The translations under genes and the position numbers were made by a program. A DNA stretch of 64,000 bases from positions 103,329-167,328 of the forward strand of contig CADBWQ010000010.1 in assembly GCA_902798545.1 (NCBI GenBank), given 5' to 3'. How positions within the stretch are numbered: position 1 is the stretch's first letter; every line of letters begins with the position of its first letter. This DNA comes from Oscillospiraceae bacterium. Its GTDB lineage: Bacteria; Bacillota; Clostridia; Oscillospirales; Oscillospiraceae. Shown here piece after piece: positions 36,369 to 60,335 of the stretch. Below the pieces are notes generated by a model. It searched no databases. It was not told the origin of the DNA and saw only the letters and a program-made list of their open reading frames with translations.

Positions 36369-36467
36369 AAAAAAACCGCCCGGAGAAGTCCGTGCGGCCT
36401 GATTGCTTATCAAAACGAAAACTTCTGCAGCACAAACTTCTATTACTTCGTCTTTCTAAAGTAATAG
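36369..36467 (-). promoter_or_regulatory. Tyrosine-type transcription attenuator
   Basis: Minus strand, three competing pairings. (1:2) CTATTACTT inside the Tyr codons (36459-36467) pairs perfectly with AAGTAATAG at the leader stop (36440-36448). (2:3) Antiterminator: AGAAGTTTGTGC (36430-36441) pairs over 12 bp, two of them G-U, with GCACGGACTTCT (36384-36395). (3:4) Terminator: CCGCACGGA/TCCGGGCGG (36376-36397) with loop CTTC, followed by seven T (36369-36375). Segments 1:2 and 2:3 share two bases; 2:3 and 3:4 share strand 3. Ribosome stalling on Tyr codons would free strand 2 and allow readthrough. Confidence 0.85.
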
Positions 36468-36505
36468 CGGTAATAGTATGCAGCTGCAAAAGAAAGGGCT
36501 TTCAT
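36443..36505 (-). CDS. Tyr-rich leader peptide (20 codons)
   Basis: A 20-codon open reading frame, ATG at 36505 and TAA at 36443-36445, encodes a peptide that begins MKALSFAAA and then has YYYRYYF, giving five Tyr codons in six positions followed by Phe. GGGAGG lies six bases before the ATG. It sits between a sigma-A promoter and a terminator and upstream of an aromatic-amino-acid-type ABC importer, as in trp, his or phe leader peptides. The peptide itself is probably without function; the codons sense charged tRNA-Tyr. Confidence 0.85.
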   Translation of the reverse strand: MKALSFAAAYYYRYYFRKTK

Positions 36506-36533
36506 AAGACGCCTCCCGTTGAAACTGTTTCAC

Positions 36534-36562
36534 ACTTTAGCACTTTTTGGTGCTAAAGTCAA
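36534..36562 (-). promoter_or_regulatory. Sigma-A promoter covered by a perfect 26-bp palindrome
   Basis: On the minus strand, TTGACT (36557-36562) and TAAAGT (36534-36539) are spaced 17 bases. The palindrome ACTTTAGCAC-N6-GTGCTAAAGT (36534-36559) spans it from the -10 into the -35 and is a likely repressor operator. It is 29 bases upstream of the leader peptide start. Confidence 0.75.
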
Positions 36563-59997: not shown

Positions 59998-60335
59998 CCT
60001 CCGAATGAAATCGCAGCTGTCCGTCCCGATTCAAAAGGACGGACAGCTGCGCATCCGTGGTGCCACCTTTTTTGCCGCAATGCGCGGCCACTCTCCGGGA
60101 GTCCGACAACCCCCTGCGCCTTAACGCAGCGCCTGCGGCTCACCTACTTGCTTTCGCTTTGGGCTCGCGGCTCGGGAGGGTTACCTGCAGAGAGGCCTGT
60201 ACCGGGCTCTCACCGGGCCCCGGTTCGCTGTGACCGTATCTCTCTGAGACATGTCTCCGTCTCAGCCATGTCCGGCGGTTCCCGCATCCTCGCCGCGCAG
60301 GTTCCGCCGCTTGTTCATCTGAGGATGGATGAATG
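59998..60335 (-). promoter_or_regulatory. T-box riboswitch (asparagine type) leader of asnB
   Basis: The minus strand has the T-box core AAGGTGGCACCACGG (about 60054-60068) and, after a Stem I-like region, the usual AAGTAGG linker. In the specifier position before CTCCCGAG stands AAC (60180-60182), an Asn codon, although the next base is C rather than the common A. A hairpin of 14 bp (60013-60026 with 60037-60050) is the terminator candidate but its tail GATTTCATT is a poor U run. A TATCAT -10-like box sits near 60336. Confidence 0.85.

Follow-up and report, generated by a model that had tools for sequence, protein, structure and literature searches.

An ABC operon in an Oscillospiraceae bacterium (assembly GCA_902798545.1) lies behind a short leader in which Tyr codons crowd a small open reading frame (ORF), and this arrangement raises the question of whether a translating ribosome decides if the operon is transcribed, which amino acid it would sense, and whether the operon imports that same amino acid. 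The DNA analyzed, referred to here as the window, is a stretch of 64,000 nucleotides of contig CADBWQ010000010.1 (positions 103,329 to 167,328), and coordinates are counted from its first letter.

The leader and the operon behind it

An earlier note on this DNA had listed a promoter, a GGGAGG, a 20-codon Tyr-rich ORF, an antiterminator and a terminator with seven T, and each of these was found on the minus strand, which carries all of the features described in this section. The leader (36505-36369) combines a Shine-Dalgarno (SD) sequence and a 20-codon ORF with three hairpins and a T7 terminator, and it stands upstream of the ABC operon. The SD sequence, GGGAGG (36512..36517), is followed by an ORF that runs from an ATG at 36505 to a stop codon at 36443 and encodes MKALSFAAAYYYRYYFRKTK (36443..36505 including the stop; assigned from sequence, conservation and shuffles), with Tyr at five of its codons. 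None of 5000 dinucleotide shuffles produced an ORF behind an SD with five or more Tyr codons, and a single shuffle produced one with four or more. Further upstream, a motif scan placed a promoter-like element, TTGACT-17-TAAAGT with a TG before the -10, at 36534..36562; it scores 9 of 12, which is weak taken alone (one found against 0.8 expected by chance), and it sits within a conserved palindrome that is considered below.

Within the leader, the codons Tyr-Tyr-Phe form the 5' arm (CTATTACTTT, 36458..36467) of a hairpin whose 3' arm (GAAGTAATAG, 36440..36449) has the stop codon inside it. Both arms were assigned by pairing and covariation; the note was right about the presence of this hairpin but not about its length, which is 10 pairs, one of them G-T, rather than nine. 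The antiterminator joins AGAAGTTTGTGC (36430..36441) to GCACGGACTTCT (36384..36395) with 12 of 12 pairs standard, as identified by folding and pairing, and its 3' arm overlaps the intrinsic terminator GGCCGCACGGA-CTTC-TCCGGGCGGTT + T7 (36369..36399; folding, pairing and covariation), in which the hairpin spans 36399-36374 and the seven T lie at 36375-36369.

Three features go beyond the earlier note: a palindrome that covers the promoter, another copy of the element, located before aroF-tyrA, and a sequestering (lower) stem whose 5' strand GCTGCATA (36477..36484) overlaps Ala-Ala-Tyr codons and whose 3' strand TGTGCTGC (36427..36434) overlaps the antiterminator arm, both placed from the full-length fold with the register set by eye. 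For the 164-nt leader the folding energy is -53.3 kcal/mol (z -3.57; 0 of 200 shuffles as good), and in this full-length structure TTTGTGCTGC is taken up by pairing with the 5' half of the ORF, which hides the antiterminator arm; when the leader is folded without its first part, the antiterminator forms.

Profile searches assigned the operon a TrpX-type substrate-binding protein (PF04392, 35368..36327; also placed by alignment), an ABC permease (PF02653, 34353..35303) and an ABC ATPase (PF00005, 33566..34450), the true start of which is probably further inside the listed ORF. The binding protein scores 207.6 bits with the TrpX model NF041285, under its curated cut-off of 390 bits.

Conservation, covariation and the proposed switch

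A relative of the binding protein was found in 48 of 61 genomes of the genus. The comparison of orthologous leaders had been named beforehand as one that could refute the proposal of an attenuator, and its outcome favored the proposal; an SD-preceded aromatic leader was found at 37 of 44 orthologue loci of the genus (at least 53% identity, upstream DNA present), the seven without one being L046, L047, L063, L064, L066, L068 and L069. Among 20 loci from named records, nine have the leader, two lack upstream DNA and nine, mostly more distant, were negative in the scan; the nearest relative in this group, L007, has a binding protein of 87% identity. Not counted as leaders were L021 (a Phe/Tyr-containing ORF with a terminator-like stretch behind it) and L024 (a short Phe-rich ORF). 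L032 and L033 were left out because they duplicate the contigs of L010 and L011, upstream DNA is missing from L036 and L039, and L073 and L074 (~44% and ~42% identity) fall outside the 44 orthologue loci.

The collected leaders also number 44, with 35 from genus genomes and nine from named-record loci. An anchor, TTTGTGCTGC, and its partner are common to 41 of them, and the same 41 have all three hairpins, their pairings kept with compensation; L067, L070 and L071 have no anchor and were left out of the 41-sequence counts. Across these sequences, the ORF is conserved together with its SD and start, its codons varying, with synonymous changes, yet staying aromatic; at least three Tyr codons occur in 38 of the 41 leaders. 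L067 and L071 carry Tyr-run leaders that lack the usual antiterminator anchor and are possibly independent or strongly diverged attenuators.

Counting antiterminator pairs from the anchor outward gave 336 standard cells out of 372 over 31 distinct arm pairs, a value helped by picking the 3' anchor for best pairing among pattern matches; 1000 cross-sequence shuffles gave a mean of 307.6 and a maximum of 325, and slid registers gave 106-188. One antiterminator position shows six pair types and is standard in 39 of 41 leaders. For the terminator, with its register likewise picked for best pairing, 343 of 369 cells are paired; antiterminator and terminator are mutually exclusive, and the overlap of their arms is conserved with covariation. 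The codon hairpin was found in all 41 leaders, with 5 to 14 pairs, a count that is partly built in because the best stem was sought in each sequence. In an alignment of 38 of the 41 leaders (A2), codon hairpin and terminator together have 92.0% of 758 cells paired, compared with 84.9 +/- 0.6 after shuffling (0 of 500) and at most 54.6% in slid registers, and their covariation score is 0.381 versus 0.258; the count of further pair types in these two hairpins was not beyond that of shuffles (77 of 500). Because the sequences are related, these covariation figures are not probabilities.

Compensation is seen within codons, as in CTATTAC/GTAATAG, CTATTTC/GAAATAG, CTTTTAC/GTAAAAG and CCATTAC/GTGATGG, and also where the peptide is altered, since Tyr-Tyr, Tyr-Phe, Phe-Tyr, His-Tyr and Tyr-Ser all retain the stem; compensatory changes sometimes replace Tyr by Phe, His, Ser or Cys. 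These changes bear on a reading modeled on TnaC, in which free tyrosine would stall the ribosome on a specific nascent peptide. Such arrest could account for the frequency of Ala-Tyr (AY in 31 of 41 leaders), but the residues differ in order and spacing among leaders and change along with the pairing, and the sequestering stem can itself explain the Ala-Tyr codons, which leaves nascent-peptide arrest the least probable of the alternatives weighed here.

To follow the switch in silico, each transcript, ending where the antiterminator ends, was folded under a ribosome mask that reached 12 bases beyond the first base of the A-site codon, and the antiterminator was scored as formed at six pairs or more. 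It forms in 38 of 41 leaders when the A site is occupied by a Tyr codon and in 4 of 41 when it is occupied by the stop codon; unmasked, it forms in 13 of 41, and with the mask at codon 2 in 30 of 41. In the window leader the corresponding numbers of antiterminator pairs are 11, 0, 0 and 0. Each codon of the window leader from 4 to 19 frees the antiterminator when masked, and across the leaders Phe codons in the A site act like Tyr codons at 111 of 117 positions. Most masked codons therefore free the antiterminator, Phe like Tyr, so the folding speaks for the switch and not for any one amino acid, and the notion that it could by itself name the sensed codon was discarded on these grounds.

The conserved leader ORF, the mutually exclusive hairpins with their covariation and the mask folding together indicate that the element is almost certainly a ribosome-mediated transcription attenuator, as the earlier note had read it. 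In the mechanism envisaged, ample Tyr-tRNA would let the ribosome reach the stop codon and cover the 5' arm of the antiterminator, so that the terminator forms. With scarce Tyr-tRNA, a ribosome stalled in the Tyr run would block the sequestering stem and free AGAAGTTTGTGC to pair with GCACGGACTTCT, giving read-through, and in the absence of a ribosome the window leader would be expected to fold on itself and terminate.

The promoter region adds a second candidate level of control. The palindrome ACTTTAGCAC-N6-GTGCTAAAGT (36534..36559, minus strand), identified by its conservation count, retains 11 or more of its 14 half-site bases at 39 of the 44 leader loci, compared with 4 of 880 base-shuffled regions, a conservation that partly reflects the promoter itself; it is the sole perfect match in its own genome. 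It is likely, on this sequence pattern, to be the operator of a DNA-binding regulator. The E. coli trp system pairs an operator with an attenuator, as the window pairs its palindrome with one. If a repressor at this site exerted the main control and the leader contributed little, retention of the palindrome in 6 of 7 leaderless genus loci, where a longer stretch was searched with no null of its own, would be expected along with its presence at the leader loci; among leaderless L063, L064, L066, L068 and L069, four of five retain it, by eye upstream of a separate promoter. A mainly repressor-based control is nevertheless very unlikely, since it leaves the covarying hairpins and the leader ORF unexplained, and the aroF copy in the same genome has the attenuator and, by eye, no such palindrome. 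A site with one mismatch lies at C3:342130, and a relative with three mismatches, at C15:13549, stands just before the Trp T-box of a TrpX paralogue.

Tyrosine, phenylalanine and the ligand of the importer

The 41 transporter leaders encode 175 Tyr (90 TAT and 85 TAC), 117 Phe and one Trp among 854 residues. Every one of them contains Tyr, four are without Phe, and Phe exceeds Tyr in five (L051, L052, L055, L065 and L072); outside the 41, L070 is without Tyr, and L137 and L141 are Phe-rich. In leaders before aroF, Tyr and Phe are about even, with totals of 61 and 61 in the genus (n=15), 86 and 94 in the family (n=22), and 122 and 111 in the class (n=26), the last set retaining a plainly wrong leader pick of eight residues at L199. 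The Tyr share is higher in transporter than in aroF leaders by Mann-Whitney comparison with the family (p 0.0008) and class (p 0.038) sets and not significantly so with the genus set (p 0.11), and the sequences compared are related rather than independent.

These counts bear on the possibility that the element is a general aromatic attenuator, sensing Phe with Tyr or mainly Phe, in which Tyr codons would be partly required by pairing. A precedent is AroR of Corynebacterium glutamicum, a Phe-Tyr-Phe leader before aroF that, in the accessible text of a review, answers to Phe and not to Tyr (Neshat et al., 2014, via PMC11802643). It resembles the window in having a leader peptide with Phe and Tyr codons and transcription attenuation, in its case of a DAHP synthase operon, and differs in its Actinobacterial host, its Phe-Tyr-Phe codons, its Phe response and a target that is not an importer. 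Phe as the second commonest residue, its excess over Tyr in five of the 41 leaders, the existence of Phe-dominated leaders, and the roughly even composition of aroF leaders all speak for this possibility; the persistence of Tyr in all 41 leaders, four of which dispense with Phe, the higher Tyr share of transporter leaders in the family and class comparisons, a T-box match before pheS of this genome and a Tyr-type binding site in the importer speak against it. A general aromatic attenuator is an unlikely alternative, and it overlaps the favored explanation, in which Phe may act as a further signal.

The binding site was read by comparison with tyrosine-binding CD0873 of Clostridioides difficile, whose structure (6hni) is the top PDB hit for the window protein (E 1.1e-45). 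According to the available portion of the structural work, Glu-263 and Tyr-279 of CD0873 mark tyrosine binding, Ala and Tyr at those positions phenylalanine binding (VC_1101), and Ala and Gln tryptophan binding (SP1069) (PMC6816091). Alignments to 6hni, 3lft and 3lkv place both specificity residues in the window protein, which by phmmer alignment has the same Glu and Tyr as CD0873, the numbering offset having been deduced from residues named in that paper; its ligand is accordingly a prediction from sequence. Glu and Tyr recur in every relative of at least 50% identity with readable columns (L094 ends before them, and L016 has Glu and an unreadable Tyr column) and in 40 of 40 sequences of a further set that includes the window protein and repeats some earlier loci. 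Exceptions at the Glu-263 position occur at lower identity: Asp is found in the first protein of L022 (46% identity), Cys in a single protein of L025 and a single protein of L026, and Ala in a TrpX paralogue of the same genome that is 33% identical to the window protein. L024, L073 and L074 form a subgroup of 43-45% identity, with Tyr at that position in L024 and in proteins L092 and L093, in which no Tyr leader was found and for which the ligand is probably different. A strict coupling between leader codons and binding-site residue was rejected, as L065, L070, L137 and L141 are Phe-dominated and have the Tyr-type Glu.

Other amino acid genes of this genome appear to be served by T-boxes (RF00230). 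Control of the window operon by a T-box was itself excluded, as its leader gave no covariance-model match at E up to 10; the only T-box-like match within the window lies 23 kb off (60032-60272, minus strand; 67.2 bits against a cut-off of 93 bits, E 2.4e-14). The gene behind this match is of the asparagine synthase B type, and the specifier of the match reads as AAC. At E up to 1e-3, six T-box matches occur in the genome, a single one above the Rfam cut-off; they precede valS, trpD, pheS, the asparagine synthase gene, the TrpX paralogue and thrS; tyrS has no T-box match and by eye starts directly behind a coding region. Specifiers, by our own reading from model alignments or (L003-L006) raw sequence, are UGG for trpD and the TrpX paralogue, which we thus read as being under a Trp T-box, and UUC for pheS. 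Among Erysipelotrichaceae, Glu is the residue in two related binding proteins whose T-boxes read UAC (Tyr), and Cys is the residue in one whose T-box reads UUC (Phe). This coupling of specifier and binding residue is not strict, since the UUC T-box of L022 is directly followed by a protein with Asp, and Glu appears in another protein farther along. L022, L025 and L026 each contain two adjoining TrpX-type binding proteins; in L026 each has its own T-box, one read as Phe and one as Tyr, which suggests that they are separately regulated.

Since Phe codons are also frequent, the codons leave the sensing of Tyr to be inferred, and the binding site, the tyrA operon and the pheS T-box match point to Tyr, which is probably the main signal. 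The suggestion that the importer takes up tyrosine gains support from the predicted binding-site residues and from the second copy before aroF-tyrA. The whole is best read as an attenuator that would sense the charging of tRNA-Tyr, possibly also of tRNA-Phe, and control a tyrosine ABC importer, a reading that we consider highly probable.

Spread of the element and related systems

The second copy in the same genome (G000:C17:19995-20106; locus L133, 496-607) encodes the leader peptide MKAFRFASYYYYFTDSLR and is followed, 15 nt past the match, by aroF and then by tyrA, aroB and aroA. With a copy of the element before each, import and synthesis of tyrosine would be induced together.

A covariance model built from 38 leaders found matches in 74 of 102 genus genomes, often two in each; across the family it matched 134 of 400 genomes, in 46 of 106 genera, the own genus included. 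A second model, used for class and phylum, matched 33 of 391 and 9 of 398 genomes, respectively, the own genome being counted in both; of the eight foreign matches in the phylum, three by eye precede a DAHP synthase-like protein and five look spurious. Alignment A4 was made without L153 and some near-identical leaders. In 107 fetched loci, comprising the best-scoring matches of each search (L103-L132, L153-L179 and L189-L218) and 20 chosen places (L133-L152), with some overlap with earlier loci, a DAHP synthase is present within the locus in 63, a transporter protein in 40 and neither in 4. Individual loci include L118, where the transporter is by eye cut at the contig end, L200, a class match before the Phe-pathway gene for chorismate mutase-prephenate dehydratase, L214, with prephenate dehydrogenase, and L216, without a leader. 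The element therefore recurs across the family and more thinly across the class, mostly before DAHP synthase.

Taken together, we lean toward a reading in which an attenuator found across the family, and thinly across the class, has Tyr as its main signal, so that Trp and Phe would be left to T-boxes and Tyr to leader peptides governing import and aroF-tyrA; the transporter copy may have been recruited from an older aroF attenuator, with codons drifting among Tyr, Phe, His, Ser and Cys while the pairing holds. If this is true, the element would be a tyrosine-specific ribosome-mediated attenuator, a leader peptide would replace the T-box for one amino acid in genomes that use T-boxes for others, a probable substrate could be named for an importer common in the genus, and tyrosine import would be linked to tyrosine synthesis.

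The attenuators of E. coli trp, pheA and pheST share their mechanism with the window, while their codons, lineage and targets differ. All three are named in the review cited above (PMC11802643). His-codon attenuators have been described in Bacillota, and in the accessible parts of these reports they resemble the window in combining a codon run with a terminator and an antiterminator, and in that related genes have T-boxes; they differ in having His codons and his genes (PMC2965389; PMC9413887). The claim of the earlier note that no example of this kind had been described was thus too strong for the mechanism, given these attenuators and AroR, and it held for the Tyr case insofar as no described tyrosine-specific ribosome-mediated attenuator was found in open-licence literature. 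The mechanism is known, and the specificity, the importer target and the lineage appear to be new. A candidate uORF with Phe codon(s) and a terminator before aroF, uORFC-13-1, differs in pointing to Phe and, in the part of the report at hand, comprises 24 sequences from Acholeplasma and environmental samples (PMC8632094). Tyr T-boxes before NhaC-family transporters appear in the available text of an in silico survey (PMC2494555).

No Rfam family (release 15) matched the window copy at gathering score. At E up to 10, the amino acid leader families, which we take to be those for Trp, His, Phe, Leu and Thr, gave only leu-phe_leader (RF01743; 13.4 against 70 bits). The trpB motif (RF04312), described in the accessible text as a riboswitch candidate found for the most part in 5' UTRs of amino acid ABC transporter genes, resembles the window in having a hairpin followed by a terminator, with the antiterminator within the first hairpin (PMC11109978). 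The window leader scores 20.8 bits with it (E 1.2 and 0.66), far short of the 59-bit gathering score, and identity with this motif was rejected for that reason. The conserved anchor and this weak full-length resemblance could be taken to favor a regulatory RNA with a small molecule or protein as its ligand and an incidental ORF, as first proposed for the trpB motif. Given the low score and an SD-start ORF that exceeds chance and is conserved with varying aromatic codons and synonymous changes, a ligand-binding RNA is highly improbable.

Seven loci (L180-L186) carry matches to the trpB motif of 41-52 bits, all below its cut-off of 59. In four of them (L181, L182, L183 and L186) a leader with a His run precedes a HisZ-type gene, and in L185 the gene behind a Tyr-containing leader is that of an SNF-family transporter. 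On the sequence of these sub-threshold examples, the trpB motif may itself be a class of leader-peptide attenuators rather than a riboswitch.
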